Source: Nymphaea colorata
Taxonomy: Eukaryota > Streptophyta > Magnoliopsida > Nymphaeales > Nymphaeaceae
Assembly (NCBI RefSeq): GCF_008831285.2
Contig: NC_045145.1
Coordinates: 24,116,802-24,180,801, forward strand
DNA length: 64,000 bases
Direction of reading: 5' to 3'
Shown here: positions 4,501 to 61,963 of the stretch, piece by piece
Layout of the letters: the number at the start of each line of letters is the position of its first letter
How positions within the stretch are numbered: the stretch's first letter is position 1
Notes under the pieces: model-generated
Database searches by the model: none
What the model was told of the DNA's origin: nothing
What the model saw: only the letters and a program-made list of their open reading frames with translations
Translations under genes and position numbers: made by a program

Positions 4501-4950
4501 CAGAAAAAACTAAAAGTGGCAATGCTGAATCTCTTGGCCACTCAACGTCATCAACTTCAGCTGAAAGTAATGCTCTAGACGCTGTCGCACTTCTGTTAAA
4601 GCACCAGAAGGGATATTTGACCTCATGTGATGAAGTAGACAATGATGAAGAAAATGCTTCCAGTGGTCACACCAACAGAGAGAAAAGGAAACAGAAGAGA
4701 AAAATAGGCCCTGAAAAACCTGTTTTTCTTGATAGCGGTCCAGATTATGAATCATGGGTGCCGCCAGCAGGTAAAATTATTCGTTATTTTTATGCAGTTG
4801 CAATCATGTTCCCTGTGTTTCTCTTCGTTAACAATGGAAAAAAATAGAAGCGAAGAAATGTATCAATGTTTTCAGTTGACATTTGCGACACACCATGCAG
4901 GACAAACTGGTGATGGTCGGACCTCCTTGAATGATCGGTTTGGTTACTGA
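1553..4950 (+). CDS. kanadaptin (SLC4A1AP)-like protein, C-terminal five exons
   Basis: Exons 1553-1666, 1762-1889, 2976-3220, 3952-4770 and 4901-4950 join with phase kept and GT-AG borders. Read in order they give a coiled-coil stretch (RKEIDAIKAKEIAQGG, then LEELENLEETLNDSIRESIG), the acidic motif SDDDEFYDRT, a second charged helix (KKECITKEIEEIRDALQEEK), a low-complexity Lys/Ser/Glu region holding KPRWLGATLQ, and the closing motif WVPPAGQTGDGRTSLNDRFGY. SDDDEFYDRT and the WVPP...GDGRTSLN tail are hallmarks of kanadaptin proteins. Family members carry an N-terminal FHA phosphopeptide-binding domain, which would be upstream of this window. The plant function is poorly known; human kanadaptin is nuclear-localising. 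The frame enters exon 1 at phase 0, so earlier exons must exist. A polyadenylation-like AATAAA lies at 5230-5235. Confidence 0.85.
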
Positions 4951-30800: not shown

Positions 30801-33800
30801 AGATTCAACCCTCTAAAATGAATCGAACAACATTCATGATTGCCTCTCTCCCCCAACAACAATCCTTTTCTTTTTCATTTTTTCATGCTTCATAACTAGT
30901 TTGGCTTATTTGAGTGCATGGAAAGCATTTCCTTTCTTGAACGCCAAGGGACTGCAAAACAGAGACACAGGGGTAGCCTGCACACCAACTCTAAATTGAT
31001 CCCTTGAAAGAGCATTCCCAATATCTGCTTTTTCTTGACAGCCCTCAGACAGCTCACTCCAGAGTGCACATAGGGCCATGTGCATGTGAAGAATTTGAAC
31101 TAAGGAAAAAATGCAATACACCAAATATAAGGAAAGAAAAAAACATAAGCCCTTCAGCTGAATCTTATGTTGAGAATTTGTAAACACGTGATTTTCAGAT
31201 ACCAAAAAGGTAAGTTCATAAATCTGGACCTCAAAGACAGATTGTAATTGCTCCCTTGGAGTGTTCTTGACTGCCTCTCGCTGCTGTCTTACTCCATGTG
31301 TGCGCATAACATGAGATGGCAAAAAGAGATATGCACCTTTATCATAACTGTTGATAAACATATGGCCATTAAAGACAATTAGAATAACAGACAATGTTCA
31401 CAGTTCAAATGCATATTTGTGTGTGCATGTGTATATATATATATATATGCATGACTTGAATAAGAGATAATGAACATGATATTTTTGTCAGACAATGACA
31501 ATTTGGGAAAAACAGAATATCTGAAAGGAGAAACATAGACACATCATACCCTGTCCAACTCAGTGGGCGCACCAACATTGGCATGAAAGGAATCACCATG
31601 TGCCTGGCCTGTCAAAACATGCAGAGTGTTAAAAATGAACAGGCTTGCACTATACTTTATCAACTTAGTACTGATATGTAGCTGAGACAAGTTGCTAATA
31701 GATCTTTAAGGATCACAGATATTCATCTGGGTAAAAAGTAAAAACTTATGCAAAGACTACCTTTGCATATCTTGGATGGACTTCCAAGGACAACCAAAAC
31801 ATAGAAGAAGAATGTGAATTAGACAACTAACAGATTGTAATCCCAGCGTGAATTCTCTTAATAAGCAATCCAATCATCATTGTGATTCAAGCTTACAAGA
31901 TCAACTGTCACCTTCAATACGAGCAGAAGAGCTCCACATGAAACAGGCAAACTATGTCTCTATCAAACATGACCAAATGGCAAGTCAGGAAAAGGATTTG
32001 CTCGTAGTGGAACTCTAGACAGCTGGAAAACTATTCTTCAATTCCAAGTAGCAAAATTAACTAATTGAGTACAAGCTGGTCTACGTCCAGAAGATGGTTA
32101 GCATCCAAGAACAGACCTGTCATATCTAATACTACACAGGCAGAAAGGTTCTAAGAAAACGCTAAGACACTAATTTTAAGGTGGAAAATGCAAAACCATA
32201 ACAAACATATACATGGAAAGCTATGGAACATCAACCAAACTAATTGGGAATGACAGATGAGCATCTTCTTGCACTTACAGTTCTCTCAAGTCCTTTACGA
32301 ACTAAAGGATCACATTCAATAACACCATAACGTCTTGAATTATTTCTGTGAAATTAAAAAAAAAAAAAATGAAACGTGTAAATCTGTTATGAAATTTGTT
32401 ATAGTATCCAAATCATCAGTCTTAAAGATATATCTTACACGTTGTCCTTGGATGCACTCTTCAATGAGTGCCTGAATGCAGGACGAATATCAGGCGGACC
32501 ATCAGCCCCCTGATCTAGTGGAGGCTGAATGTAAGCAGTTTCAATCAGCAGCTCAATAAGACGACAACCTATCTGCAAATGGCAATGCAGCTTGTAAAAA
32601 CTAAGGTCAACAATACATGTCCCTAGCTTATGTAGTCTGTCAATACCTTAGCATGTCCCTCGGTTCCCCAGGGCTCCGAGTCGTCCTTTCCTTTCACTAT
32701 CTTAGTCACCTGACGCAGCTTTTGCTTCTTTATCAAAGTTGTCACTTTTTTCCTTAGAAATTCTTTCTCCTTGGCAACAGCTTCAGGTTCCTTTTCGCCC
32801 TCATCTGCGGTGGAAGATTTCTTTCTCGTCTTCTCAAGAAATTTGCGTATCCTGCCCTGAAAGTGCAATTAAATGGTGCTGTCACAACTCAGAACTTGAA
32901 CTACGACTGAAATCTGTTTACAACAGGAGATAGTCAAGTTCTTCAAGATGAACGACAACTTCAAAATGGCTAGAAAATCCGAAATCCAGAAAAGTAGACT
33001 CAGAACCCTCCAATTAAGCAAGTCATAGTAAGAGCTATCGACCTCATTTTCGATGGCTTCGCCGATACTGCACGCTGCCTGGACAACTCGAGCGGACCCA
33101 TTGTCGTTGGAAGTCATCATCAACCCCATCAATTTGTGCATGGTGATGACAGCTATCATCTCAGCAGGCAAATGATCAATGTAGGGCGCGTACGCCGACC
33201 TGAGTTTTCCCCTCCTACGAAGCTCCTGCTCTGCCGCAATGCGATCCCTGAGAGGTTCAAACCAACCAAGGAATAGGGACTTCATGTATGGCAAATTCGG
33301 AGCTAGTTTCTTCTTGCACATATCCACCATGAGCTCCCTGTATTCCCTCGCTGCTTGTTCCCACGCTTCCGTTTCAGTCTTAATTTGCCTCCTCTTCAGG
33401 GCGCTGTACTTCGCAACTCCCAAATCGCCAAAATCCGGTTTGTTTCTGCCTTCGCATTTCTCTGTTTTGTTCCTGACTACCGCTTCAGAGAACTCTTCCA
33501 ACATCCCCTGAATTTCTTCTATTGCCGAAACATCTTCGTCCGTCGAAGAAACCACTGCTTCTGCAGCACCAGCAAAACCTCGCGTCGGTCCTACACTGTA
33601 ACAAAAGCCATCACTCATAAAGCGCGACAAACTACTCCGATTTTCGCCACTCCTTCTACAAAATCCGACGCTTCTGTCCCCCCATCCCTGCGCCAACGCC
33701 GGAATCCGTCGAATACCCATTTGAGGACACCCATCCCTCAACCTCAACACGAAACGGGAGGGGATGTAACTACCAAATAAAGAAGCTAATTGGGAAAACT

Positions 33801-33888
33801 CTTCCGCACCACTACCTTGGAGAGCAGCCGATCGACACACTATATTGAAATTCCAAAAAGATAACTTTTTATTGGCAATCTTCCACAT
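7544..33888 (-). CDS. phage-type (T7-like) organellar RNA polymerase, 19 exons
   Basis: Exons, read downward: 33888-33043, 32856-32647, 32572-32439, 32345-32279, 31608-31550, 31347-31230, 17927-17814, 17668-17537, 17455-17039, 15659-15609, 12718-12648, 11561-11477, 11190-11041, 10896-10822, 9338-9249, 8927-8880, 8774-8660, 8581-8478, 7654-7544. Phase holds throughout and gives about 998 aa, normal for plant RpoT. The N-terminal domain ([21 protein letters not shown]) is in exon 1. The catalytic core shows [10 protein letters not shown] (Asp about 700, matching T7 D537), [11 protein letters not shown] (Lys about 775 and Tyr about 783, matching K631 and Y639), [19 protein letters not shown] (Asp about 931, matching D812) and the terminal STYFFN. 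The start MWKIANKK precedes an Arg/Ser-rich leader, so import into mitochondria (RpoTm, or dual RpoTmp) is likelier than plastid-only; this is inference. It transcribes organellar genes as a single-subunit enzyme. Intron 6 is 13.3 kb and carries nested transposons; all exons look intact. Confidence 0.93.
7985..8415. repeat. divergent tandem duplication in the last RpoT intron
   Basis: Two copies of about 170 bp, roughly 257 bp apart, share ACAAGTAGGTGGGT, then AAGACT...CCATTTAA, CTGTTCAA, GTCTGTTG and CACCTATT/TACCTATT in the same order (about 7985-8165 and 8240-8415). They lie within the last RpoT intron (7655-8477). Divergence is clear, so the duplication is old. Confidence 0.6.
9411..10740 (+). 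mobile_element. hAT-type transposon remnant with BED zinc finger, in an RpoT intron
   Basis: Within the RpoT intron between 9339 and 10821, antisense to RpoT, is a GC-rich leader (about 9660-10000) followed by an ORF with a BED zinc finger. The left part, 9411-9540, is rich in GGTACG/CGTACC words that recur in other hAT-like repeats of this gene. The catalytic domain of the transposase is missing. The borders are approximate and no target duplication was identified. Confidence 0.5.
10402..10728 (+). pseudogene. hAT transposase N-terminal fragment (BED zinc finger)
   Basis: A 108-residue reading frame starts at ATG 10402. Residues about 35-80 read [12 protein letters not shown]...[22 protein letters not shown], a BED-type zinc finger with CxxC and a downstream Cys/His pair, the usual DNA-binding N-terminus of plant hAT transposases. 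After HIYGVGI the similarity ends and the frame runs into intron-like sequence. The RNase H-like catalytic core and dimerisation region are absent here, so this is a truncated copy. Confidence 0.6.
11903..12233. mobile_element. hAT-like MITE, 331 bp
   Basis: The ends are inverted repeats, CTATGTCACATGGG on the left and its near complement CCCATGTGACATCA on the right. The flanks are GTTGGACG and CTTGGACG, an 8-bp target duplication with one mismatch. An 8-bp duplication points to the hAT superfamily. It lies in the RpoT intron between 11562 and 12647 and resembles the element at 14158-14491 in size and termini. No coding capacity. Confidence 0.7.
12817..12858. repeat. GA microsatellite
   Basis: A run of GA dinucleotides about 42 bp long, with one GGG interruption, lies in a RpoT intron. 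Short ORFs spanning it are low-complexity artefacts. Confidence 0.9.
13678..13929 (+). pseudogene. hAT transposase BED-finger-like fragment
   Basis: The reading frame gives [28 protein letters not shown], then PYDGVPHNV and a basic helix. The layout (Cys, then KHHVAGRK) resembles the second half of BED fingers in plant hAT transposases, but the second zinc-binding Cys is replaced (CRYF). It is a decayed fragment, not a gene. Confidence 0.45.
14158..14491. mobile_element. hAT-like MITE, 334 bp, exact 8-bp target duplication
   Basis: CATGAGAT occurs at 14150-14157 and again at 14492-14499. Between them the element begins CTATGTCACATAGG and ends ...GTGTGACATTG, so the first bases of the ends are inverted copies. 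Internal GGGTATGGAT/GGTATGGATACG words recur near both ends. It belongs to the same family as 11903-12233. No coding capacity. Confidence 0.78.
16239..16325. repeat. short tandem duplication (about 42-bp unit, two copies)
   Basis: GTAGGACAAYAACAGTGATG followed by CAGCTCTATCAGATC is present twice in direct succession within the RpoT intron 15660-17038. One base differs in the core. No function is suggested. Confidence 0.75.
19123..19376 (+). repeat. outer copia 5' LTR
   Basis: A 254-bp LTR, TGTTGACG...TTTCTACA. The next bases are the primer binding site TGGTATCAGAGCC. It matches the 3' LTR at 29616 with scattered substitutions and a 2-bp difference in a GA run. Confidence 0.93.
19377..20470 (+). 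other. outer copia leader, no gag found
   Basis: About 1.1 kb between the primer site and the protease has no ORF resembling copia Gag and no CCHC zinc knuckle. Part is GC-rich and runs CCGCCGCCGCC. The polyprotein frame becomes recognisable only just before the protease motif at about 20560. Confidence 0.6.
20422..21639 (+). pseudogene. outer copia Pol: protease and integrase segment
   Basis: This frame contains the protease motif [14 protein letters not shown], the GAG-pre-integrase HHCC region ([11 protein letters not shown]...[11 protein letters not shown]) and the integrase core ([23 protein letters not shown] and [10 protein letters not shown], which hold the D, D, E triad). One zinc-binding Cys is replaced by Tyr (CDVY where CDVC is expected). 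The frame stops at TGA 21637-21639, where an Arg codon CGA would be expected before VFGC. Similarity continues in frame beyond it to about 21900, then further stops follow. Confidence 0.85.
22543..22832 (-). mobile_element. solo LTR, 290 bp, inserted in the outer copia RT
   Basis: The insertion runs TGATGCAA...TTGCATCA, with CATT on both sides (22539-22542 and 22833-22836; a fifth base is ambiguous). It cuts the conserved RT motif between ETF and APVA, and the flanks rejoin exactly without it. Read on the minus strand it has a promoter-like TATAAAAGGG and typical LTR ends, so it is most simply a solo LTR of a different family in reverse orientation; a TRIM-type element is the alternative. No ORF. 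Confidence 0.8.
22955..23211 (+). repeat. inner copia 5' LTR
   Basis: A 257-bp LTR with 5-bp terminal inverted repeats TGTTG/CAACA. A CT-rich tail precedes the end. Confidence 0.95.
23212..23946 (+). other. inner copia leader with tRNA-iMet primer binding site
   Basis: The first twelve bases, TGGTATCAGAGC, are the standard plant copia primer site complementary to the 3' end of initiator tRNA-Met. The remaining 700 bp form the untranslated leader. It has a short internal duplication (CGTGAATCAGGCTG and related, 23227-23330). No coding region is recognised before the Gag start. Confidence 0.85.
23947..24948 (+). pseudogene. inner copia Gag, one premature stop
   Basis: From ATG 23947 the frame encodes a copia Gag with the [16 protein letters not shown] capsid signature near the start and, after a Gly/Arg-rich stretch, the zinc knuckle [14 protein letters not shown] (CX2CX4HX4C). 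TGA at 24247-24249 stands where Trp is usual (QM-W-DFL), so the frame is broken by a probable TGG to TGA change. A second in-frame stop, TAG at 24946-24948, separates Gag from Pol; copia elements normally use one continuous frame. In nucleocapsid function Gag packages the RNA. Confidence 0.85.
24967..28163 (+). pseudogene. inner copia Pol (PR-IN-RT-RH), frameshift and one stop
   Basis: In the same frame as Gag come protease ([11 protein letters not shown]), the zinc region (WHLRLGHP...[11 protein letters not shown]), and integrase ([34 protein letters not shown]). At 25905-25915 the loss of one T in a T run shifts the frame; RT then continues from 25914 ([45 protein letters not shown]). TGA at 27600-27602 replaces Trp. 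RNase H runs to the stop at 28161-28163 ([26 protein letters not shown]). All domains are otherwise well preserved, consistent with recent decay. Confidence 0.88.
28171..28430 (+). repeat. inner copia 3' LTR
   Basis: A 260-bp LTR identical to 22955-23211 except A to T in AAGA(A/T)CTC and an extra CTT near the 3' end. Confidence 0.95.
30251..31229. other. rest of RpoT intron 6, no gene seen
   Basis: AT-rich intron sequence continues from the hAT target duplication to the donor of RpoT exon 6. Stops are frequent and I recognise no coding region or element. Confidence 0.5.
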
Positions 33889-36288
33889 GATTTTAGGATA
33901 TCAGAACTCCTGAGAGCAGTGAACTGGAAAAGAAGTTGAGAGCAGAGCGGCTCCAGATAATTGCAATGAAGCATGGGCCATCACGCATCAAGGCGGAAGC
34001 GAGAAAACGGAAGACAAGAATAATTGTTTATTTCAGATCAACAGCGCGTGCCGAGTCGGCGGGAAAATTTATCAGGGGGAATGGAAGCCATGAACGACGG
34101 TGGCGGAGGGAGGGAGACACTGGAGGGCGGCGAGCCGCCTTAAACCCTCCTTAAGCCCACAAAGCTCAGGCAGTGGCTTTGCCCATAGGGCTAACAACGG
34201 ATCGGGTTCTAGTAAAAGGTGGACCCGTACCTAATAACTCCATTACTTTGGCGATGGTTGCAGGCAGGGTCCGGGTCGAAGTTGGCCCATTAGTTTGGCC
34301 AGGTCGACGGATAACGTAGTTTTAGATGTATATATTCATCCTATCTGCTGTATTTGATTGAGTTTAAATAAATTGTTAGATATTAAATGGTAACATTAAT
34401 GACGAATTGTTTTTCAAAAAGTTCATGAAAGTAAAATTTTCTCTATTTAAATTTGATTTAATTCATTTAAATTGGATCAAGTGGGTATTGGACAAATTGT
34501 CAAGCCCGTAAAAAAAATAATGCTGACTTGAATGGAGATGGAAGTGATATGAACGGGTCGGACTGGGTTGGCTGTATGAACTAAGCAACTACCATGTCCT
34601 AATGAGCTATACTAATCAGAACTCTAATTTTCAATGTATCCTTTTCCGTATGATCTCTACAACATTATACACCTATAATTTCTGCTCACTGCCCAAGTGA
34701 GAGGCTTAAACCTCTTTTCCTTCCCCCTATTATTGGAGTTATATTGGATTCTATAACTGCTTCAAGATTGAGTTGTTCGGCAAAAGTAACACACTGTTAC
34801 TGTTCTCTGAATCTATGTCCAAAATTGTATCAGATTTTTCAAACATTATACAAGTGTTTTATGAATCTACCTCATTTTTTTAGGATAGATTCATGAAACA
34901 CTAAATATGTATAATTTGTGTCCAACAACCCTTATGGGGGCTTTCTTCAACTCAAGAATAACATTTGCCACTGCTTGCAATCTAGACAAGTCATGTTCAT
35001 GAAAATCAAACTGATGACCTGGATTTATTGGCCTGCTAGTACTAGCAGTTTAATATTTTACCACTGCTTTCTTTAAATTTAAAAGATACATTATATATAT
35101 TAGTATATGCATTTATTTAAGTTTTTGGATAGTTAAGGGAACACGTGCATGCGAGGGTTCAAAGCTGTGTCTTCCCAAATCCCACATTGAATTGCCTCTC
35201 TGTTATTCAAAAAAATGAGAGAAAACTAAATAGCAAACACAATTCCAGTGAAAGGGAGAAGCAAAAGTTCTAAGGTTTCAGTTGAACTCTAGCAAGTCAA
35301 ACTAAGTAGCAAGTTCCTATGTTGCATAGCATTAAACTTGGAGAAGCTGTTCTAAATTTTCTGGTAACAACCAGGTGTGGATAGCAAATCTTATACCGCG
35401 TACTCATCATAAGAAAAACTTTAGATTGTCTTCCAAAGTTTTGGGGGACGCTTACATTGCTTAAAACATTCCAATGAGTTATTGCATCATGTTCTACGGA
35501 TGTATTTTACAACTTGCAAAAAAATAAAAAATAAAATAAAAACATGTCGGTGGGATCTTGGATCATTGCAAATTCCGTCGAACCATAAACACAAACTAGT
35601 TTAAAAATTACGGTGAAAAGAAAAATTACAAACAGCCGCTCAACAAATTGGTGAATAGCAAATGCTGCTTAACATGAGCATGGAGGATTGCCAGAGGGAG
35701 AACCAAGAGCTTAACGAATCTCATCCCTCAAAAATCGAAAATTCGGAGACAAAACGCGACGATAAAACAACTCCGGCCTCGACCATGCCGTTGGCCGACA
35801 GGTTGATGCCCGCTGTTATGTTTTTCAATTTTATATTTTTTAAGGGACAAGATTTATTAAGAGGTGTAATTTTGCAAACTTATTTGCTTATTTTAATACT
35901 TTCTGTCGAGGGTGGTTATTTAAGAATTCGGGGGAAGAGTTGAGCAGCCATTTGAACGAGAAGTCGAGAACTAGACCATTTCCTCAAAACAGCCTCATTC
36001 TCTGCAGCATTTTGCAAGTTCTCCTCCAACACCAATGGTGCCGACATGGGTAACGGCAACTACGAGTTCAAACAGTTGAAGGAACCACAGCAGCTATAAA
36101 CACAGAGAAAGTAACAAGCAGAGAAAAAAGTTATTTTCCGTCATTTAATCAAAACAACAATCGATCAATATATTATTAACCTCTTCTCGTTCATTCTTAT
36201 GCTATCTTTCATCTCACTCCTACAAAAGATAGATACATTTCACATCTACTTTCTGAGCTCCATGCACCGAGAGAACATCAGAAAGGAT
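33889..36288. other. intergenic region, RpoT upstream side to HSP90C 3' side
   Basis: RpoT and HSP90C are both on the minus strand, so this holds the RpoT promoter and 5' UTR (33889 upward) and the HSP90C 3' UTR (below 36289). It is GC-richer up to about 34330 and AT-rich afterwards. ORFs here, such as 35662-35943, show no known motif. No clear TATA box was identified. Confidence 0.45.
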
Positions 36289-36898: not shown

Positions 36899-39800
36899 GA
36901 GAGAGAGAGAGAGCTTACATTCAGGTCTTTGATAATGGGATGGTCTGGATTAATTTCTAATATTCTTCTACCTCTCATGAACTCCAAGCTTGATGTGTCC
37001 CCAAGAGTTTGAGCTCTCATAAGCCTTCAAGACGAACATAGTTAGACATTAATGAGCTAATGGGAGGAGTGTTTCATTATAGACATAGTTAAATTCGATA
37101 ACATACCTTTCCATGTTAGCAGACCATCCAAATTTCCCTGACACGAGAACACATGGAGACGAGCTCAGACGCTTTGAGATTTGAACCTTGGCAACTTTAT
37201 CACCCAACTGCTGTTTAATCCAATCACATAGGACATTGAATTCTTGCTTAGTTTCTCTTTCCTTTACCTCATCCTCATCACCTGCAGTATAACTTCATAT
37301 GAGCACTACATAATTGCAAAAGAATGGTCCGCACTAGCAGATAATATCAGAATTAAAAAGGACAAAACATCTGAAGATCTTTACCCAGCTCTAGATCTTC
37401 CTTGCTAATGTCGATAAACTTCTTCTCTTTGTAGGTCTGCAAGTTCTGGATGGCAACCTCATCAATAGGCTCAACGAGATACAACACCTCAATATTTTTC
37501 TGTACAAGTTTCTCCAAGAAAGGAGCAGTTTTTGCACTCTTCAAACTATCTGATGCAATATAATAGATAGCTTTCTGGTTCTCTTCCATGCTATCAATGT
37601 AATCATCCAAACTGATTAGCTCCTCCTCACTCTTTGAAGAATAAAACCGCAAAAGTGGTGTGATACGCTTATGGTTCCCAGAGTCCTCAATGCATCCCAA
37701 CTTCAGAAACTTCCCAAAATTCTCCCAGAATTTTTTGTAATCCTGGAGGAGGCACAACCCTTAAAAGAGAAGTGATCATAGTTATTTAGCTATGCAATAA
37801 GTCATGATTAAAACTTACCTCTTTATTTTCACTCTCAGATATATCCTGAATCATGTCAAAAGTTTTTCTGACAAGACGCTTTCGCATGATTCTGACCTGT
37901 TGACAAAATAAACAAGCAAATCTAAATAAAGCTCATCAAGAAGACCAGCAAGTATGGGAAAGAAATAGTGATCTTACAATTCGACTTTCTTGAAGGATTT
38001 CACGAGACACATTAAGAGGAAGGTCATTGGAATCCACCACACCCTTGACAAAGCTTAAATAACGTGGGAACTGCAATTAATAACAGCGAAGATATTTTAG
38101 ATGACATCTGTGGAGACAATAGGTTTTAGAAAAATCACATGGAATATCATTAGCAATGAAATATGAGAGTGAAGAACATGTGTAATTGTCTTCTGCTATA
38201 CACAAAAGATGGAAGAAAAGAGAAGAGAAACTAAATAATGACCTCACATGATACCTACCAGTTCACCATCAAAGTCATCAGAGATGAATACACGCTTCAC
38301 ATACAGTCGAATGTTTTTTGTCTTGGGATTCATTACTTCTTCATTGTTAAGAGGAGCCATTCCAGGAATGTAGAGAATGCTTCTGAATTCAACTTCACCC
38401 TATTGAAATTGGGTTATAAGTTATTATGATATTTAAGTGCTTAAAATATAGAATTTATTTTCCAATGAAGAATACCGAAAAAAGACACAGCAACGACTGA
38501 TGCCAGATACCTCTGTTGTGAAGTGAGTATGCCCAAGAGGGTCTAAAAACTCATTGAAAGTCTTCTTATAGAATTCATTATATTCATCTTTCTCAACTTC
38601 CTTCGGGTTGCGCATCTGAAAAGGTCAAACCAGTAAGCTAACTAATGATGAGGCACCAACGTGCATGAACTGTGAAACTTTTATGAAGAATACAATACGC
38701 TTCAACAACATTTCAGAATATAAAATCAAAGATGGAAAGCTCTCAGGAATTTAGTATTTTACCCATATTGGCTTAGTTTCATTTGTCAGTTCCCAGTCCC
38801 AGTATTTCTCGGTCACAGTCTTCTTCTTTTTCTTCTTCTCTTCCTGAAATTGGAAAAAAAATTAGAATCTGAATCCATTCTCAATGGGATCACAGTACAC
38901 CAACAACACAGTTACTATGCTTGTCGTAAGGCTGTTACCTCAGGTTGTGGTTCTTCACCTTCTTTAGGTGCTTCCTCCTCTTCTACCTATACAAAAACAC
39001 ATGGCCAAGCGAAACACTCAAAAGCATGAAATTACTAAATAATCCTATTCAATAGAAAGAAAACACAACAGAGAAGTACAAATGAGCCTACGTGAGCAAA
39101 CTGAACTGCTAAGATACTTAACAACCAATGTAAAACAAGAAAAGCTAGCCTCAAGCAATAATTCCACACAGTTCAAATTCACTTGGTGTACGAAGGTCAA
39201 AAAATAATCATGAAATTACTTGCCTCAACAGTCTTTGACTTTTCTTGCCATGTATAAATTGGAAAAGAAACAAACTGTGAATAATTCTTTACTAATCCCT
39301 GGATTCTAGCAGGATCTGAGAACTCATACTTATCATCAGCCTGCAGGATGAAAACAAAGAAGTCATTATCATGTCAAAAGCATTAGAAAGATCCCGAAAT
39401 ATGGCAGTTCTCTTTTTACCCTTAGATAGAGCGTGATTTCTGTGCCCCGTTTCAGTCGTTTCTCAGGATCTGTTTCCTCTCTTATCTCATATGAGCTGCT
39501 GTCTGCAACTGCTTCCCACACGTATTGCTTATCAGATTTTGGACTTTTTGTTGACACAACCACCTAAAAAGTTCATTATAGAAACAGTTAGAACTCAAAG
39601 ATGGATAAATATTACTGGCATAACTAGCCACAAAAACAGTTTTTCAGATTCTAAACGCCAAATACATAAAATCTCCACATAACTCAGTTAGATCCAGCCA
39701 CAGTTATCCCACAAGTCTGTGACAGCAGAATGATACAATGACTCAACACTCATCCTTAGGTGATTATAATAAAACTTTCTTTTTTATACACATTTCACTT

Positions 39801-45330: not shown

Positions 45331-48300
45331 ATGGTCAGAAAGGAGGGCTCCATGAAAGTGAGGAAGAGGAGCCAGTCTTCCATTGTGAATAGGAAGCAGA
45401 GAAACCCTAGGAGCAGGTCTTCATTTGATGATGACCGCTTCTTCAACAAGAGAAACAAGCGGACAATTGCAGAAGATGAAGAGATCAGGGAAAGCGATTA
45501 TGATGATGATGATGAGTTTGACGGAAAAGAGAAAAGGGAAGGAGAGGAGGGGGCGCAGGAATTGGAGCCCGAAGATGTTGAGACGGCAGATGAGAAGCGC
45601 GTTCGCGTGGCGAAGGCATACCTGGAGAAGATAAGGGCAATCACAAGGCATGAGGAGGAGGATGGCTATGTGGATGAGGATGAAGATGAGGCGAAGGCAG
45701 AGGAGGCGCGGAAGGGGATGAGAGACTCACTTGTTGCGGATTTTCTACAACAAGAACAGCTAGAAGAGAGTGGGCGGGTGCGGCGGCAGCTCGCTCTGAG
45801 GTATTTTTTTCTTTTCCTGGTTTCCTGATAAGTTGGAACCAGTCCCTTCCTCTCTGTTTTTATGCATGCGGGCAAAATAAATTGGTTTAATTTAATGTTG
45901 GAAAAATAATGACATTTTGTTGTTCAATAGGGTGCAAAAACCAGTGGAGGGTTTCCGTTTGTTAGTCAAACATCGAAAAGCTGTGACTGCTGTTTCATTA
46001 TCTGATGATGATCTCAAAGGATTTTCTGCATCCAAAGATGGAACAATCTTTCAATGGGATGTTGAAAGTGGCAAAACTGAGAAGTACTCGTGGCCCAGTT
46101 GGGACATTCTTAGCTCGCATGGTGCTAGAAAGCCAGAAAGTCCTTCGATAAAGTGGAGCAATCATGTTTTAGCGTTGGCTGTTAGTTCTGATGGCCGCTA
46201 TTTGGCTACAGGGGGCCTAGATCGACATGTGCATTTATGGGATGTTCGCACGCGGGAGCACATTCAGGTAAGCTGCAGCTGAGTACTGTTTGTCGTGGAC
46301 ATATTTTAGTTCCTTTTTTCAATCTTAGGCTACTGTATCGCCGTTAGAGTATTTTATCTCGATGCAACAAATGTATTTTCTTATATTTATTTTGTGATTC
46401 CTGATTCTACGTTTTTGGTTTATTTTGGTAGTAGAATTATTGTTAGGTTAAATGAAGCTTGGTTTTTGTTTCCTTATTGAGGTTCATTGGTGGGCAGGCA
46501 TTTCCTGGTCATAGAAGACCTGTGTCTTGTTTGATCTTTAGGCAGGGAACGTCACAACTTTTTTCTGGATCATTTGATCGCTCTATCAAGATATGGAGTG
46601 CTGAAGATCGAAGTTACCTTGGGACATCTCATGGCCATGAGGGTGAAATATTAGCGATTGATTGTCTAAGAAAGGAGCGGACATTGACTGTTGGTCGTGA
46701 TCGAACAATGCGATTGTCAAAGGTAATTTATGATCTTAGGACATTATCAACCTATTAAACATTAGATGTTCTTTTGAGTTTTTATTATTATATGTGATTT
46801 TTCATTATGATGCCTGGGTTGAAGGCATCTCATTTCATGGAATCCATTGTATTTCTCACTTAATGAACCTGAATGATTCTTCCATTGGTATTGTTGGCCT
46901 TTTCTAGATCCCCGAGGAAACACATCTAATTTTCCGCTCCTCAACTGCATCCCTGGAGAGTTGTTGTTTCATCAGTAATGATGAGTTCTTATCTGGCTCA
47001 GATGATGGAAGCATAGAGCTATGGAGCTTATTGAAGAAGAAGCCCATTTTTGTTGTAAGACATGCACATTCAATGCTAGCCCCCAATACCAACTTAAATG
47101 GAGTCTGTGATGAGAGAAAAATGGTTAATGGTCACTCAGGTAAGACAGTTTAACTGCTTTTGAAGCAATTTTGTCACACTTCTTTTTCCAATGGAGCTAA
47201 ATCCTAGTCTTAAAGATTTGCCATGGTGTTTCAAGTTTTTGAATATATTCTATATTATTGGCATGGATTCTAGTATGGAAACCCTTTCTTGACTCTTTTT
47301 GCAAACTTCCGGTGATAGCACCTTAAATTTGAGGGTGGGGATGTTGGGAAATTGTGTGTAGGTACTCATGTATATTTCAGATATATATGTACCAGTACAT
47401 AGTTCTCATTTGTATAATACTTATTTGTACTTTTTATTTCTTTTACTTATTCTTTATTTTCCATCTTGTATTTTCTTTTATTTTGTCAGAGGCTTTGGAG
47501 TCCCCTACAACTTCATTTCTAGCCGTTGGGCTCTCAATGGTTCCTCACTCACTTGTATATGACCTTGTAACATATTCTTAGTTGAGGCCTTTTTTGCAGC
47601 TCTGTTATTCTTTTTGATAAACTTTTCCTTCATATTCCAATGTGTTCTTCTTGGTTAGGCTTTTGTGCCTGTTTTATGTGCTGCTTGCTGCTGTGTTGAC
47701 AACAGAGTGTGGAGGACCTTGGTGCATTTGATTGTGGGCCTTAGTGCCATTACTTGTTCTGTTTGTTGCTGTATTGACAACATATTTGGGTGCCTTAGTG
47801 CACTGTTTTGGTTGTTGCCCACTTGACAGGGAGATTTGGGGCCTAGTGCATAGTTTGCTTATTGCTGAAAATATCGTGTGTTGAGCTCGTTGATAGAGTT
47901 TCTGAGATCCTATTTCCTAACATCAACTTCCTACTTAGGTACTCTTTTGGTTCTTTTTTTTTTCCCCAATTACAGATTACGAACATTCTGAGGCTGGATT
48001 TCTAAAACCATCAACTCAGTCATGGGTTGGGGCTGTTGCAGTCTGCAGGGGCAGCGATCTTGCTGCATCTGGAGCTGGAAATGGTCTTGTGCGTTTGTGG
48101 GCTGTAGGGGATGAACAAAGAATAATTAGCCCTATACATGACGTTCCATTGGTATGTGTTTCAAAAAGTGTTCATTTTCATTATTAGGTTCTGCCTCCAT
48201 TTTTGCATGTTTTAACAAACTTCTATATCATTTATGGGACTGTTAATATTTTTTGCTGTTCAAATTTCATTGTTAAGTATTTTGGTCTTTATGTGGTGCT

Positions 48301-54105: not shown

Positions 54106-54220
54106 AGAAATGGTTGAAAATAAGGTGGCGATATTGTGGAAGGAAGACAATTTAATGCGTGCATCATGCATGTTAAAAGTCAACAAATTAAAGTCTTCTC
54201 CATCACCCCTCGTTGCTCTC

Positions 54221-54227
54221 TATAAAA
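54221..54227 (+). promoter_or_regulatory. TATA box of compact metallothionein gene 1
   Basis: CTCTATAAAAGGAG lies 108 bp upstream of the ATG, giving a leader of roughly 75 bases if transcription starts about 30 bp downstream. The corresponding position of the second gene reads TGTACAAAAAG. Confidence 0.7.
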
Positions 54228-54328
54228 GGAGAACGCCTGGAGGCGTTGGGCTGCAAGGAGAGTCGAGAGAGTTGGGATCAAAGAAAAGAAACCAGAGTAT
54301 TCTAAAGAAGGAGAAAGAGGAAAGCGCT

Positions 54329-54535
54329 ATGTGTCGCTGCGGAGCAAACTGCACATGCGGCTCAGGCTGCAAATGCTCTGAAGGGTAATCAATCTCTCCC
54401 TTTCTTCTCTCTTCTCCCTCTTCTCCAATATGAATTAATATTGATGGGTGTTGTTATTGTGAGTGCAGGCGCTATGAGACAGAAGGCTGCAAGTGTGGCA
54501 GCAGCTGCAGCTGTGGTTCATGCACCTGCAAGTGA
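54329..54535 (+). CDS. compact metallothionein-like protein, copy 1 (40 aa)
   Basis: Two exons, 54329-54384 and 54469-54535, separated by an 84-bp GT-AG intron, encode 40 residues with 12 Cys. The N-domain is CxCxxxCxCxxxCxC (Cys 2-16), the linker is only SEGRYETEG, and the C-domain is CxCxxxCxCxxCxC (Cys 26-39) ending CTCK. These are the Cys patterns of plant type 1/2 metallothioneins, which bind Cu, Zn and Cd through thiolates and buffer cytosolic metal. Ordinary members have a linker of about 40 residues; here it is nearly absent, as in the short Brassicaceae MT1. Exon 1 (56 bp, phase 2) and the start of exon 2 (G CGC) correspond exactly to exons 1 and 3 of the type 2 gene at 56040-56617. 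A good TATA box stands upstream. Expression must be inferred. Confidence 0.88.
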
Positions 54536-55684
54536 ATATATTCAGGGGATCACATGATAATATATCCATGTGGTTGTTGTGTTCAGCTGTAAAATAATGT
54601 TGCATGTATATGTGAAGTTATGTGACTTCTGTGACAAAATAATTAGGCCGTATGAGTGTCATGTGAGTCCAGGGCCTGGCTCCCAACCGTATGGCCTGGT
54701 GTGCTCTTTGGGCGCATCTTCTAAATGTCATTCTGTGCTTCTTTTATCTCCTGTATGGGATTAATGAAATACTAGTTCTCCCTACTCAATTTTGTCAAAT
54801 CTTTTATCTTGTCAGCAGATCATAATTCTTATCCAAATACAATGTGTTTTGTTTTAAGGGATATAACATAGTTAGTGGGGTTGAGGCCTGTAAAAAAAAG
54901 TTTGATTTTTGTAAGCATTCTACCTTCTCATCTTAATCAGTATATAACTAGCTAGGTTGAATCGGCAATGAGATGTAATATTGAAAAAGTAAGAAACCTC
55001 TTTACTATGACAAATAACTTTTATTCACATGGTTCTATTCCCGGCCAGGTGTTGGCAAATACAAAAGACTATTTACTTTTACATCTAATTCAAAATTTGG
55101 CTCGTTTATATATAGCGGTGCATCTTAAGGTGCCAGGATTTCTTACCCCTCAGCTCAAATTTAACCTCAAACTTCAACTCAGCCCAAATTTAACCTCAAT
55201 CTTTCTACACTTTGACGGCTAGTTTTATATGCACAACCAGAGTTCTTTTCGTTTTCCCCTTCCTATGTTACTATATATGGTTTTCGAAAGTTTGGTTTAA
55301 CTTTTCTTTTCTGGAAAAGCGTGGCATTTGTTATACCTTTAAAATTTGGATGAAAGAATTGGACATCTTCATTTTTTGCTATGTTTAACTTTTTAGATCT
55401 TTCTCTCTCTCAGATCTTTAACACACATCTCAAGACTCTCAACCTTGGCATTAGAGCACTTTTTTTTATTTACCAAAACTTTGGGAGCCCTTTTGCATAA
55501 TATATACATAGAGATTTGACCCTGGTCGTGATATGCACTTATTGTGAGTTCTCATATTTAACTTAGTTAATAGTTTTTTCTTAAAAACAGGAATAATAAT
55601 TTATACTTAATTTGAAAACATGACTGATTAGGTACACGGCCTTGGCATATTCTACGAACCTCACAAAAAGAAAAGATGCATTAC

Positions 55685-55755
<71 letters not shown>

Positions 55756-56039
55756 TTATGCATCTTTTCTTTTTGATCTACCTATCTATCTATCTATATG
55801 TATAAAATTAGCACTTTAAATAATAAGAAAAGGATCATTTCATTCCACACTTATGTATACATGATTCGGATTCCAACCAGAGACACAATAACTTTCACAT
55901 GGGACACGAGCAAGCACAGAAGCTAGGCCAGGGCATGGTGCCCTAGATGATGAGGAAACGCCCATGGCCAATTTATTATCAACAAACTACACATAAACTT
56001 TGTCGTGATCCTCAGGTCACCCGGAACACAGGAGAGGTA
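54536..56039. other. intergenic region between metallothionein genes
   Basis: It holds the 3' side of duplication copy A up to about 55460, then AT-rich sequence with a TA microsatellite at 55684-55752. The first 250 bp are probably the compact gene's 3' UTR (conserved with copy B at 61964-62130). No other gene was seen. Confidence 0.5.
55684..55752. repeat. TA microsatellite
   Basis: An (AT)n tract of about 69 bp with one G interruption. Confidence 0.95.
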
Positions 56040-56617
56040 TCACTTGCAGGTGCATGGGTCACACCCACACTTGCCGCACTTGCACCCTTCACTCACATCG
56101 TATCCTTCCTCAACCATCTCCAATACTCCACTGAAACGCCTGAACTCGTCCAAATTCACAAAGTTCATTGATCAAGGGAAATTAAGGGAGGAACAAAGAA
56201 CAGGAAGACCATACGAAGCAGAAGAGGAGGTGTACCCAACTAGCGGAGCAACTCCAGAAATCAAGATCTCAGCACCCTTTGCTTCAGAAACGGTGAGATC
56301 AGGAAACATCTTGCACCTGTACATCAAGTGAGGTCTTTTATTAGCAAAGCCCAGAAGCAAGAATTGTAACATCCCGGCTCACACCTATACAAGGTTGGGA
56401 CTCTTGATCTGATGAATTCCAATCTGCCCCTTAACAGCTTCAGTTTTTCATTAAAAACAGCTTCAGTTTTTCATTAAAAAAAGTTAAGCATCAAGACAAT
56501 CAATAAAGAAAAACACGCATAAGAGACATATAAGAGAGAGAGAGAGAAAGATGCTGTATACCCTCCACCGCACTTGCAGTTAGAGCCACATCCACAGTCG
56601 CCACCGCAGCCAGACAT
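56040..56617 (-). CDS. metallothionein type 2, 3 exons (78 aa)
   Basis: Exons, read downward: 56617-56562 (56 bp), 56316-56236 (81 bp) and 56139-56040 (100 bp). The product starts MSGCGGDCGCGSNCKCGGGC, continues with the type 2 hallmark KMFPDL and a linker containing GVAP, and ends CKCGKCGCDPCTCK. Type 2 metallothioneins chelate Cu/Zn and scavenge metal in the cytosol. The N-domain lacks one Cys of the classical MSCCGG start (MSGCGG), and the C-domain has CKCGKCGC, one spacing shorter than the usual CKCGxNCTC. The donor of exon 2 was taken at GTTGG|GTACACC because it keeps the GVAP...FSGVLEM order typical of the family; a donor 21 bases later is possible. Orientation is opposite to the two compact genes that flank it. 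Confidence 0.85.
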
Positions 56618-56727
56618 TTTTTTTTTTGCTTCGATCTGTCTGTTGCCCTTCTTCTAATTCTTTCTGATCTCTCTTTGCTTAATCTCAATTGATCTCCTTG
56701 TAGTTCTACGTCGTTAGGCTCCATTCT

Positions 56728-56734
56728 TTATATA
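56728..56734 (-). promoter_or_regulatory. TATA box of the type 2 metallothionein gene
   Basis: On the minus strand CTCTATATAAAG lies about 111 bp upstream of the ATG at 56617, the same spacing as in compact gene 1. Confidence 0.65.
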
Positions 56735-56879
56735 GAGCAATACTGAAGGAGGTGAAGCTATAGACGTGATCGTCATTTCAGCGATAACCAATACTTTTCT
56801 GGATTTTTTTTCCCCTTAATTATCACTATCAGTTTTTCCACCAACTTCCACCTACTAAAAATTATATATAGAGAGATGT

Positions 56880-57480
56880 TCCTTGCTTGCGTCTATGTTC
56901 TTAAAAGAGGATCAGCCAATTCAACTGGTATAGTTGTGAGATAACTGCTTCTCTCCTATAAAAATAATTAATGAACATCTGGATGTCCTTATTGTATTTG
57001 AGGGGACACAATGCACATTAATCTATGACTATGAGATCGGATCTCGCCATCATATCTTATGTCACTTAGTTTCATTAGTTCATTTTCTAATGTTTATAAG
57101 TTATTGTCTGTAAAATATACGTCTTATCTCCACAATAATAGAATTCTGAAGCCTTCCTAGGTTATTGACATGGATTACACCGACACCTGTAAGAATGTTT
57201 TTCAAAATGAACTAAAAGAGTACGATTTTTTAAATGCCGAGAATCTGGTACAGTTCTTCCCTGAGTCCTTTCCGAAATGTGGACCTCACTCAGCATATGA
57301 TCATGCATTGTTTATATTATCTATAGGTAACAGCATGACATTTTTTTATAAACGGCATGCTTGCATGAAAAATATAAAAGTGTCCCCAGATACTGTTGCT
57401 CATATAGGCATATTTTCTCTCTTAATTCAATTTAAAATAATTTAAACTATTTTTAATTCATAAGAAATAAAAGGTATGCA
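56880..57480 (+). repeat. direct repeat copy 2 (partner at 51181-51790)
   Basis: Matches 51181-51790 over about 600 bp in the same orientation with many small indels. It lies directly upstream of the type 2 metallothionein promoter. A 91-residue frame at 57170-57445 is interrupted in the partner copy and its indels do not respect codons, so the repeat looks non-coding. Confidence 0.85.
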
Positions 57481-58984
57481 TATATACAGGCACGACATGT
57501 ACACATATAATAGTCAGCAAACACATCGCCTGTACATAAATACTGACATGTATAAATCTACGTGAACATGAAATAAGGGCAGGTTTGGTGAGAGTAGGTA
57601 AGGAACTGAAAACATATGTCCACTGATTTAAGCATTATTCATTTCACATGGGCTTTTATAATAATAACATGCCTTTCATACAAGACGATAGAGTGAACGG
57701 TGACTTTATCACTTTTTTCTCATTGTTTTTTTCTTAATCATTCATCATGTTGAATCTAGTGACTTTGGTTAGATGACTGAATGACTTCAAAAATACATGA
57801 CAGTTCAATTTATTTCACACACACACACACACACATTGGATCCTTTGACAACCCTAAAAATATTGTGGTTCGAGCAAACTGCTTTATTATGGGATGCTCT
57901 GCAAAAGTATGTCCATAAGTGAAAAAAATCTCTTCCTCCTTTTTTTTGGAGGGTTCGGTGAATTCAAAAACTAATGTAACACTACATAACTATAGGGAGA
58001 AGGTTTTCTCATTTTTTTTTGGAATATTTCCCTGCTAGAAGTTATTAGTGGTTCTTGCAGTTGTTAATGTCACATAATATTTCAGAAGCGTAAAGAAAAA
58101 TGGTAGGACTAATTTGCAAAAAGTATGAAACGAAAAAAATTTAAAAATATTGACGAGCGAGCGAGAGAGAGAGAGAGAGAGAGATGAGAAAACATCAGAA
58201 ATACAATGAAAACTACATAAGTGAAAGTAAAAAATCAGAAAGTCAAATTTCGATGTGCCTTAAGAACTGCCAAGGATCTCCGAACAAACAACATGCAAAG
58301 TCATAGGTAATGCCATGAAAGAAAAACATCATTCAGAGTAGTCTATATATGCCACCAAATTAATTTTATTGTATTGCATATCAAATTAACCTTGAACTCA
58401 TTATTTGAATTGATCTCAATTCCAGTTCAGGAATTTAGATCTATTTATCAGAATTACTGATTCAACCACTTGAATCCTTAATCATATTCCATGAGTTAGT
58501 TTTTAAATTACCGCAAATTTGGTAACTTAGCCAATGCATAACATAATTTAGGGTTTAACAATAGTACATTGCTTACTGGCCTGTAGGTCAGTATACTTTA
58601 CCGTATTATATATTGCCATCTTTATTAACATAAGTTTAATTTCTACGAAAAAAAAGTATTCAATTTTTGGAGGTAATTAAAGGATGTATATTCTTTTTTA
58701 ATTTTTTTTGGAAATTATGTATTTTAAGACCCTGAATGTTCTATTTCATGTCCGACATTTATTTTTGCTTTTGACCATGCTAAGACATGTTACTTGTTGA
58801 GGAGGGCCTCATTACTGAAATCAGTTTTTGCAGTTGCTCCTACAAATGATATCAGTTTTCTTCTTCATGTAGAATTTTTTGCATTGGCTTCTGAATTGTT
58901 GTGCTTGAGAGGTTTAACCCATATAATGCTCTGCCCAAAAGCCAGATGACTGAAACCTGAAGATTGACAAACAAGCAGCTGCAT

Positions 58985-59160
58985 AGCCACATGGTGGCTG
59001 GTGTGGGCAGTTGCCCACACCCGCCTCACAAACTTAGTTTAATATATATGTTAATGTTTTAATATATTTGATTGTTATACATATAAGTGCTTCTAAGAAA
59101 TTAAAGGTATTGAGTGAGTACTCACACTAGAAAATTTTTTTTGGCTCCGCTAGTGCAAAC
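58985..59160. repeat. dispersed repeat relic (related to 44463-44560)
   Basis: GGTGTGGGCAGTTGCCCACACC opens the copy and TTTGGCTCCGCTAGTG closes it. The opening and the following TTTAATATATTTGATTG stretch recur at 44463-44560. The ends suggest a decayed MITE with GGCGGAGCC-type termini. Confidence 0.45.
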
Positions 59161-59862
59161 ATGATTATCTTGAATATGCATGAGCAAAAGAATTTTGTGC
59201 TTTTAATGTACATATTCCCTTCTCCTCATTAGATCCATTAACATCTAAACATGAATGTAAGTTTCTTCTTGCTGCACTGATTTTCTGTAGTTCATTTGCC
59301 TTCCTTTGCCAGTTGCGTTATGGTGGACTTCATGTTTCTCCCACTATAGCTGGTAGCAGGCCTGGTGGTAATTTGATTTGCTGGAGCTCGGGCTGCTATA
59401 ATCTCCGTGAGGTTAAAAGGCCTTTCATGTAATGAATCATGAAGTATGAATAAGTTGACATCTTCATGAAAAACAGTCAGAACTTTCGTGTACTTTTTTC
59501 TCATTTTTCTATGTATCAGTTGTGGCGATTCTTTGTTGCAAATTTCTTTTTTTATTTTATTTTATTTTTCTTTCGATTGTAGGATCCCTTGAAAATACAT
59601 GAAAAATCATGGAAACTTCAAAGAGCACACAGAAAGGGCAAGAATTCTTGAACCTTCGCATTCCTTTTAAGTGAAAGATGGAAGGAAACTTGATGTATGA
59701 ATGCCTTAAATTTCATTATTCTTAAGAAGCATGTCTCGAACTATTCATGATATCGTGCTTTATCATCTACCAAGCAGTAGCAAAGTCACATATGAGTTGG
59801 TGCGGGTTCCAGTCGACATTTTTTTTTTCATTTTTGCATTAATACTCCAAATATTTGCCTTG

Positions 59863-59865
<3 letters not shown>

Positions 59866-59914
<49 letters not shown>
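59866..59914. repeat. TA microsatellite
   Basis: (TA)n tract of about 49 bp. Confidence 0.95.
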
Positions 59915-59917
<3 letters not shown>

Positions 59918-61069
59918 TGCAACTTTCAAATTTGAAAATCATGAATGAGTGCCCTTCAAAAAAATTTTGCCGGCTTGCTACAGTTAATAAGCAATTTGAT
60001 TTGCACCTTTTTTTTCTTAACGTTAACCGTCGATTTGGAGAGGCCTGCCTACTCTCAAGTTGTTTCGGAACATTAACCATCGACGTTGCTACATATATTA
60101 GCCTCTGGTTTTTCTCCTCGCAAAAGCTACTTGATCAAACCTTCGTCGACAGACTTAGATGGTCCACGGACACCTCAATTAGCCGCAATGTTTGAAATGG
60201 TTCCCCTATTATAACTAATAACTAAAGTTGGGCATCCGGCAGGATGGGCTAGCCCAAGGCTCAATAAAGCCGGACTCAAGCTGACCTGATGCCTTTGATG
60301 CCTTTGCCGGTGGCCCAAACCCGACCCACTTAGTTATCGGGCTGGACTCAAGAATTCAATGTCCACACAAATTTGAAACTCTTAGAGTTTCATATTTTAA
60401 TATCTAAAAAACGTACCAATAATTTTTAAGGGTGCCATCACCAACATATGAACAGTTTTTAAAGATACCATCGATGACATATAAAGAGTTTGTAAGGAAG
60501 TTTTGGACAATGCACCAAGAAAACCGATTGCTAGTGTCATATGCCCACCCTGAGTTATAACCCTTTTTGTATACTCAGAACAATTTTGCAAAGAAAACAA
60601 AACCGATCTTGTCCGAATTGATTCACCGAATCGTGAGCGAGAATCTAAACCATCCCTGATGATGGCAAACTAAGCTGATTACTCTCGAAAGAAAAAAAAG
60701 CGCTAGATATAGACATATGTAGCTGCTTCCAATTCTCAAGAACTCGACGCAAACGATGACGCAATGGTTAATCTGTCGCCAACCTCTCGGGTATTGTTTT
60801 TAGACTTGAAAATGAAGGAGTGGAATGCTTATCACCTCAAAGTCGTCCTATGAATGAATTATGTAATCTACTTAATCAACAAGTTTCGTGATAACTGAGA
60901 AGGAAATACCAAAAAAGTTCGTGAATCACAATATTGTTTAAATTCCCAATTAGAACTTGCCCATGATTTTAACAAAAAAGTCTGTGCCTGAATCCACCCG
61001 AAAATTAAAAGACAGTTTTCTACATATTGATTAGATCGTTTTGGCTCCCAAAGTGTTATAACCAGTTTG

Positions 61070-61071
<2 letters not shown>

Positions 61072-61142
<71 letters not shown>
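61072..61142. repeat. CT then TA microsatellite
   Basis: (CT)n of about 23 bp continues directly into (TA)n of about 48 bp. Confidence 0.95.
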
Positions 61143-61145
<3 letters not shown>

Positions 61146-61412
61146 AATTCAATCGTCTACACCGGCTATTTATGTAGCCGGATGACTATGAAATTGTTGT
61201 AAAAAATGCATACTGTGGCAAAAAAACCATGGTCAAGTAACTAACCATGCAACCATGCTGCTACAGAAATAACAGACTGATTTTAATTATATATATATAT
61301 ATGAAGAGAGAGAAAGAGAGAGAAAGTTGAAAATAAGATAGCGACATGAAAAAGAAGACAATTTAATGCGTGCAACATGCATGTTAAAAGTCAATAAATT
61401 TCATTGCCCACT

Positions 61413-61445
61413 CGTCAAAGCTGGTTACGCGTCAAAGCTGGTTAC
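61413..61445 (+). repeat. 17-bp tandem repeat upstream of compact metallothionein 2
   Basis: CGTCAAAGCTGGTTAC occurs twice with a 17-bp period, about 320 bp upstream of the ATG. It is absent from the corresponding place in copy A. A regulatory role is only possible. Confidence 0.7.
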
Positions 61446-61761
61446 GTGCACACCTTTATATATGCACAAGGGTGTGTAACGATTCAAATATTAAAAAAGA
61501 TAAACTTTTAAAAAGACAAAAAAAATTATAAAATATTAGAATACTAAAATCTACAAAAGATTTTTTAAAATACCCCATCTCTCTTTTTTCTTGCGTGCAC
61601 AAAGGCAGCACACAACTCAATCTCCCCTTCCCCTTGCTCTGTACAAAAAGAGAAAGCCTGGAGGCCTAGGACTAGAAGGAGAGTAGAACGTGTCGGAATC
61701 AAACTTCAAAGAAAAGAAACCAGAGCATTCTAGAGAGAGAACGGGGAAAGACGAAAACTCT

Positions 61762-61963
61762 ATGTGTCGCTGCGGAGCAAACTGCACATGTAGCTCAGGC
61801 TGCAAATGCTCTGTTGAAGGGTAAATCAGTCTCTCTCTCTCTTCTTTCTCTCTTCTCCAATATATGAATTGGTTGGTGTTGTGATTGTGAGTGCAGGCGC
61901 TACGAGACTGAAGGCTGCAAGTGTGGCAGCAGCTGCAGCTGTGCTTCATGCACCTGCAAGTGA
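61762..61963 (+). CDS. compact metallothionein-like protein, copy 2 (41 aa)
   Basis: Exons 61762-61820 and 61897-61963, with a 76-bp intron at the same position and phase as in copy 1, encode 41 residues and keep all 12 Cys. Compared with copy 1 it has Gly to Ser after the fourth Cys, one inserted Val in the linker (SVEGRYETEG), and Gly to Ala in the C-domain (CASCTCK). The inserted codon lies in exon 1, just before the donor. Conservation of every Cys and of both splice sites argues for purifying selection and a working gene, although the position of copy 1's TATA box reads TGTACAAAAAG here. Metal chelation is inferred from the Cys pattern. Confidence 0.86.

Follow-up and report, generated by a model that had tools for sequence, protein, structure and literature searches.

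Type 1 metallothioneins of plants are defined by CxC motifs only, and the N-domain of type 2 has CC, CxxC and CxC, according to PMC4382971. What the linker does in plant metallothioneins is poorly understood according to PMC10603854, where a chickpea type 2 study is reported as giving the linker no important role in folding. In Brassica, type 1 proteins have a linker of 7 residues, and AtMT1, AtMT1C and BnaMT1 are 45 aa long and have one intron (PMC6121329). Here we describe a stretch of 64,000 nt from Nymphaea colorata (C8:24116802-24180801, below called the window), which holds two compact metallothionein genes of two exons, c1 and c2, and between them a long gene, a1, with a separate linker exon. 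On balance we favour the view that the compact genes are functional metallothioneins which probably arose once, from a three-exon gene of the type 2 lineage by deletion of the linker exon, and then multiplied.

The compact genes resemble the Brassicaceae type 1 genes in having two exons and one intron, and in having six CxC motifs split equally between the two ends (in the Brassicaceae with the exception of BraMT1 and AtMT1B, as far as the genes compared in PMC6121329 go), whereas the N. colorata linker has 9-10 residues and the upstream DNA is like that of the plant's own type 2 genes. With angiosperm type 2 genes, represented here by four canonical genes (m1-m4) and the family PF01439, they share the phase-2 intron after the N-domain, the C-domain Cys pattern of m1, m3 and m4 and a core promoter like that of m4; in contrast to these they lack the linker exon as well as CC and CxxC in the N-domain, and c1 and c2 score below the PF01439 cut-off. 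For rice, the gene descriptions in PMC3491035 place OsMT2b1 (85 aa) and OsMT2b2 (58 aa) at the same locus, and from the difference of 27 residues, or 81 nt, we infer skipping of the same linker exon, which those descriptions do not themselves say. OsMT2b2 is a splice product predicted in silico from a gene that has the linker, whereas in the compact genes of N. colorata the exon is absent from the DNA.

Positions of c1, a1 and c2 are given in window coordinates. Both compact genes are on the plus strand, c1 at 54329-54535 and c2 at 61762-61963, and a1 is on the minus strand at 56617-56040. In c1, exon 1 (54329-54384, 56 bp, ending in phase 2) encodes the N-domain CxCx3CxCx3CxC, the GT-AG intron has 84 bp (54385-54468), and exon 2 (54469-54535, 67 bp including the stop) encodes the C-domain CxCx3CxCx2CxC. 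The product has 40 aa and 12 Cys, with 9 residues separating Cys16 from Cys26, just as in the original prediction, which had been made for the compact genes from the letters of the window. For c2 that prediction was slightly off, as its exon 1 (61762-61820) has 59 bp and not 56 bp due to an extra in-frame GTT codon, and its product has 41 aa, 12 Cys and a linker of 10 residues; the intron (61821-61896) has 76 bp and exon 2 (61897-61963) 67 bp including the stop. The models of a1 confirm the predicted exons of 56, 81 and 100 bp with exon 1 in phase 2 and a linker exon that is a multiple of three. Exon 1 is at 56562-56617, intron 1 (245 bp) at 56317-56561, the linker exon, also matched by a linker profile, at 56236-56316, intron 2 (96 bp) at 56140-56235, and exon 3, which includes the stop and encodes the C-domain CxCx2CxCx2CxC, at 56040-56139. 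Both introns are in phase 2 and the product has 78 aa. The three exons had been assigned to N-domain, linker and C-domain, and this needs a correction: the N-domain is Cx3CxCx3CxCx3C, and its last Cys, Cys20, is encoded by the first full codon of the linker exon.

Further members of the family were sought by one family, two protein and one DNA search of the plant's own genome, and genes were then modelled in the stretches retrieved. All gene counts are lower bounds, as they comprise the best-scoring candidates in the regions pointed to. There are at least five intact compact genes, namely c1, c2, c3 (24182434), c4 (24372094, minus strand) and c5 (24377561, minus strand). At least five long genes are local, with a2, a3 and a4 at 24.373-24.387 Mb in addition to a1, and a5, near-identical to a4, at 2.93 Mb. 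The canonical type 2 genes number at least four, m1-m3 on C5 and m4 on C6. When a compact relic is counted, ten of the eleven C8 genes lie within 24.171-24.387 Mb, in a 215-kb cluster that mixes compact genes with four of the five local long genes. The relic (C8:24293621, minus strand) has two C-domain Cys replaced, and its compact intron end and 3' untranslated region (UTR) are still recognisable; the start of exon 1 was not found there.

Some single copies deserve mention. The c3 gene (C8:24182434-24182639) begins 1.6 kb beyond the window end, encodes 40 aa with the C-domain CKCGSGCSCDPCTCK, and is synonymously the most diverged intact copy. The a2 gene (C8:24373353-24373982) is without two N-domain Cys present in a1 (MSGGGANCGCGSNSKC), and is perhaps in decay. 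A segment of some 5 kb surrounding a4 (1250-6454 of its fetched stretch) is repeated at more than 99% identity at C8:2.926-2.931 Mb, near the opposite chromosome end, which is either a recent duplication or an assembly artefact.

Compact models had to have at least 11 Cys, and long models an intron 1 in phase 2 and a linker exon whose length is a multiple of three. The former filter left one model each for c1, c3, c4 and c5 and four for c2, for which we chose the one with the junctions common to the other compact genes. Each of the nine chosen long-gene models (five local, four canonical) consists of three exons, with 81 bp in the linker exon and both introns in phase 2. It should be noted that this linker exon is open in all nine genes without the frame filters as well, and that 81 bp is the sole linker-exon length in six of them when GTA donors and CAG or TAG acceptors are used, the remaining three also permitting 102 bp (a1), 111 bp (a3) and 132 bp (m1). 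Exon 1 has 56 bp in four of the five intact compact genes (59 bp in the fifth) and in all five local long genes, compared to 65 bp in all four canonical genes, although m3 also permits 56 bp using a GTG donor. The matching first exons are therefore more than a coincidence between two genes.

The last exon has 67 bp in all five compact genes, 100 bp in the local long genes and 94-97 bp in the canonical ones. Compact introns measure 76-114 bp (five genes), and in the local long genes intron 1 has 245-418 bp and intron 2 96-105 bp. Profile searches covered both strands of 13 records, these being the window and the twelve fetched stretches. The linker-exon profile, built from eight long genes, recovered all nine long genes from these records, and the next match, at E 0.2, was not convincing. 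A linker exon concealed in the compact intron was thus rejected, both by the intron lengths, as had been argued from c1 and c2, and by the profile.

If the exon was deleted from the DNA, the compact intron could be a joint of intron 1 and intron 2, and we compared its flanks in c1-c4 with those of a1-a4 and m1-m4, leaving out c5 and a5 as near copies. The compact donor flank scores better on intron 1 than on intron 2 in all eight long genes (barely so for m2), and the acceptor flank scores better on intron 2 than on intron 1 in six of the eight, failing for m1 and m4. The intron-1 donor matches are in the top 0.2-2.7% of random GTA sites, where some intron-2 donors are also high (a3, 0.6%), and the acceptor matches to intron 2 are in the top 0.9-4.0% in six of eight. 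This supports, but does not prove, a compact intron in which the beginning of intron 1 would have been fused to the last part of intron 2.

Pairwise alignments of the flanking DNA gave a mixed picture. Upstream, two of eight compact/local-long pairs scored above all 200 shuffles, with c4-a4 reached by 69 of 200, and the compact/canonical pair c3-m3 was also above all 200; downstream, one of eight compact/local-long pairs was above all shuffles, with c4-a4 reached by 122 of 200. We therefore used profiles. The profile made from some 170 bases of sequence upstream of c1-c5 matched m4 at E 2.8e-6 and a1, a3, a4 and a5 at 1.5e-4 to 6.9e-4, in the right place and on the right strand; the best unrelated site scored 0.017, a2 0.12, m1 1.7, m2 3.7 and m3 12. 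The compact core-promoter profile, with most GA-rich leader omitted, matched a1 at 5.5e-5 (56693-56767, minus strand), a3 at 2.4e-4 and m4 at 0.0035, followed by an unrelated site at 0.011 and by a2, a4 and a5 at 0.036-0.043. In reverse, the long-gene core profile matched c5, c1 and c2 at 0.0014-0.0093. The c1 match (E 0.0075, 54197-54266, plus strand) spans the core promoter and leader start, TATAAAA ... GCTGCAAGGAGAG, which is alike in the long genes, and the c2 match (E 0.0093) is at 61627-61682 on the plus strand. The longer upstream profile of the long genes gave c5 0.0015, c1 0.0045, c2 0.024, c4 0.53 and c3 1.6. Compact and long genes thus share promoter and leader sequence, and together with the likeness to introns 1 and 2 this supports the predicted exon loss from a three-exon ancestor.

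In unrooted trees of c1-c5, a1-a4 and m1-m4, the branch that separates the compact genes from all long genes has supports of 99.9/99 (domains), 97.1/99 (with the linker added) and 99.5/100 (with upstream sequence). As all five intact copies and the relic are without the exon, and the five intact copies form one tree group, linker loss seems to precede duplication, in the order that had been proposed. In the inferred spliced frame, both exons included, c3 and c4 differ by 7 synonymous changes in about 23 sites and 3 nonsynonymous changes in about 97 (Fisher P 0.0003). The same excess is seen for c2-c3 (P 0.0017), c1-c3 (P 0.0033), c1-c4 (P 0.022) and c1-c2 (P 0.048); these are five of the ten compact pairs and they are not independent. 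Since synonymous change exceeds nonsynonymous change, purifying selection appears to act on the two-exon frame of the compact genes.

Loss of the linker exon is only part of the story. The compact genes had been described as a type 2 gene minus its linker exon, and the exon loss is supported, while more has changed than this. Ahead of the first Cys of the last exon there are 6 residues in the compact genes, as against 18 in a1-a5 and 14-15 in m1-m4, so at least 8 further codons (about 8-12) are missing; compared with the local exon 3 the compact exon 2 is 33 bp shorter. Further, the a1 N-domain would be down to 5 Cys if the linker exon were dropped, and the N-domain of the compact proteins has 6, with Cys2 as the extra one. 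The C-domain is CxCx2CxCx2CxC in all five local long genes, CxCx3CxCx2CxC in all five compact genes and in m1, m3 and m4, and CxCx3CxCx3CxC in m2. The C-domain Cys spacing of Arabidopsis type 1 differs from that of the compact genes. As the local long C-domain looks derived, being one residue short of a spacing kept in the compact genes, the local genes are unlikely parents, and the proposal of the local type 2 gene as the source finds no support; to judge from these spacings, the local long genes look like sisters of the compact genes. Over the first ten letters of the last exon, c3 (G CAC TAT GAA) and m2 (G CAC TTT GAG) agree in 8.

The history we favour would begin with a metallothionein gene that had three exons and came from the lineage to which the local and canonical type 2 genes also belong. 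A deletion in the genome, reaching from inside intron 1 to inside intron 2, would have removed the 81-bp linker exon and left the frame intact. The last exon would also have lost 8-12 codons at its beginning and Cys2 would have been gained, in an order that may have differed from the one given here, and the compact gene would then have multiplied in the mixed tandem cluster, beside its linker-bearing sisters. The compact protein is most likely a thiolate metal chelator or buffer, in which two CxC triplets only 9-10 residues apart would bind metal, perhaps packed into one joint cluster.

Several observations weigh against this history. The gene models are predicted from sequence alone. The trees have too few sites to be rooted or to settle where the compact group attaches, and they do not group the canonical genes firmly; the tree made from upstream sequence only is erratic, with m1 and m3 falling among the compact genes with weak support. 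In exon 1 the compact genes are a little closer to the canonical genes (mean 35.5 of 48 nt) than to the local long ones (33.2 of 48). When only intron letters are used the donor prefers intron 1 in seven of eight genes and the acceptor intron 2 in six, and ungapped acceptor identity clearly prefers intron 2 in only four (a2, a3, a4 and m2), the others being ties or near-ties. Against a CT-rich background the intron-1 donor matches are modest, in the top 3.9-25% (fraction reaching 0.039-0.25), and with the compact acceptor profile the intron-2 ends of a3 and m2 score E 1.3 and 3.2, worse than an unrelated site (0.87). In the 13 records the long-gene core profile misses c3 and matches c4 on the wrong strand only. 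The 3' UTR likeness is weak: of the long genes, the compact profile picks out a3 alone (E 0.023, against 0.047 for an unrelated site), and the long-gene 3' profile gives E 0.4-5.6 for the five compact genes, 0.53 for the relic and 2 for m2. Finally, c1-c5 have all 12 Cys in CxC, three motifs per domain, which is exactly the type 1 pattern.

This last point leads to the most serious rival, in which the compact genes are type 1 metallothioneins from an old angiosperm type 1 gene and the linker was lost independently of the local type 2 genes. The Cys pattern agrees with the type 1 definition in PMC4382971, and c1-c5, having neither CC nor CxxC in the N-domain, lack what defines type 2. In the PF01439 scan of c1, c2 and a1, the compact proteins score 18.1 and 16.9 bits, below the cut-off of 23. 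They also lack the long Cys-free type 1 spacer, with 9-10 residues vs 41-43 aa in the three oat type 1 entries compared, though such a spacer is not universal in type 1, as shown by the short Brassica linker, and Brassicaceae type 1 genes may have lost theirs in a similar way. As rice type 1 genes also have three exons (PMC3491035), the phase argument fits a type 1 ancestor as well as a type 2 ancestor. A search of the plant's own genome with an approximate pea type 1 query gave no long-linker type 1 gene, only two canonical type 2 C-domains, and carries little weight, as it missed the compact genes too. The promoter and leader likeness to the local long genes and to m4 speaks against type 1 descent, as does the tandem cluster common to compact and long genes, and we regard this descent as possible but rather unlikely. 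The gene called type 2 in the original prediction, a1, deserves that name by its PF01439 score (72.8 bits, above the cut-off), its linker start CKMFPDL and its three exons, but must be considered atypical, since its N-domain is without the defining CC and CxxC.

The compact structure could also have come about by another route, either mRNA-mediated loss of one intron with deletion in the fused exon, or splice-site mutation with decay of the exon. The compact introns are near the local intron 2 in length and far below intron 1, as such a route would have it, whereas the preference of the donor flank for intron 1 over intron 2 in all eight long genes and the failure of the linker profile to find any exon remnant at the compact genes make it improbable. 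We give very little credit to the suspicion that the compact models are wrong or the genes pseudogenes. The freedom in modelling c2, the prediction of all models from letters only and the degraded further copy at C8:24293621 would permit it, but five intact copies have the same junctions, the c2 codon insertion is in frame and nonsynonymous change is low relative to synonymous change; on these grounds we rejected c1 and c2 as pseudogenes. Deletion of the linker exon from a type 2 lineage gene thus remains the explanation that we prefer.

The rest of the window holds unrelated features. Copia-type retrotransposon reading frames (integrase, RVT_2) occupy 20410-29462 on the plus strand and are probably more than one element; the best unrelated promoter match (22682-22756, minus strand) looks like an ordinary TATA region between such frames and was dismissed. 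The retrotransposon frames are flanked by fragments of a gene for a phage-type RNA polymerase (RNA_pol, RPOL_N) at 17018-17515 and 32869-33900 on the minus strand, and frames at 37353-37760 (minus strand) and 45896-46282 (plus strand) match HSP90 and WD40 repeats. The domain scan took in 8 of the 33 open frames of the window. Searches of the window with Rfam at gathering scores and with a tRNA scan gave no match, and the sole match in the solved-structure search was Nab2p at E 0.93.

As similarly short versions are known from the cabbage family, with short type 1 forms already described in the Brassicaceae, the compact proteins should be regarded as a useful variant rather than as proteins of a new kind. 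Among the full-text matches listed, with subscription journals mostly outside their scope, we recognised no linker-free metallothionein from water lilies or other basal angiosperms. It is further quite possible that deletion of a type 2 linker exon gave rise to the type 1 Cys pattern with a near-minimal linker in this early-diverging angiosperm, converging on the Brassicaceae type 1 form, with linker-bearing sisters left behind in the cluster. Linker-bearing and linker-free relatives in one genome make a natural pair for the effect of the linker on metal stoichiometry and cluster packing. If the convergence is true, 'type 1' as defined by Cys pattern would not be one lineage, and if the type 2 origin is true, typing of metallothioneins by Cys pattern alone would mix lineages.

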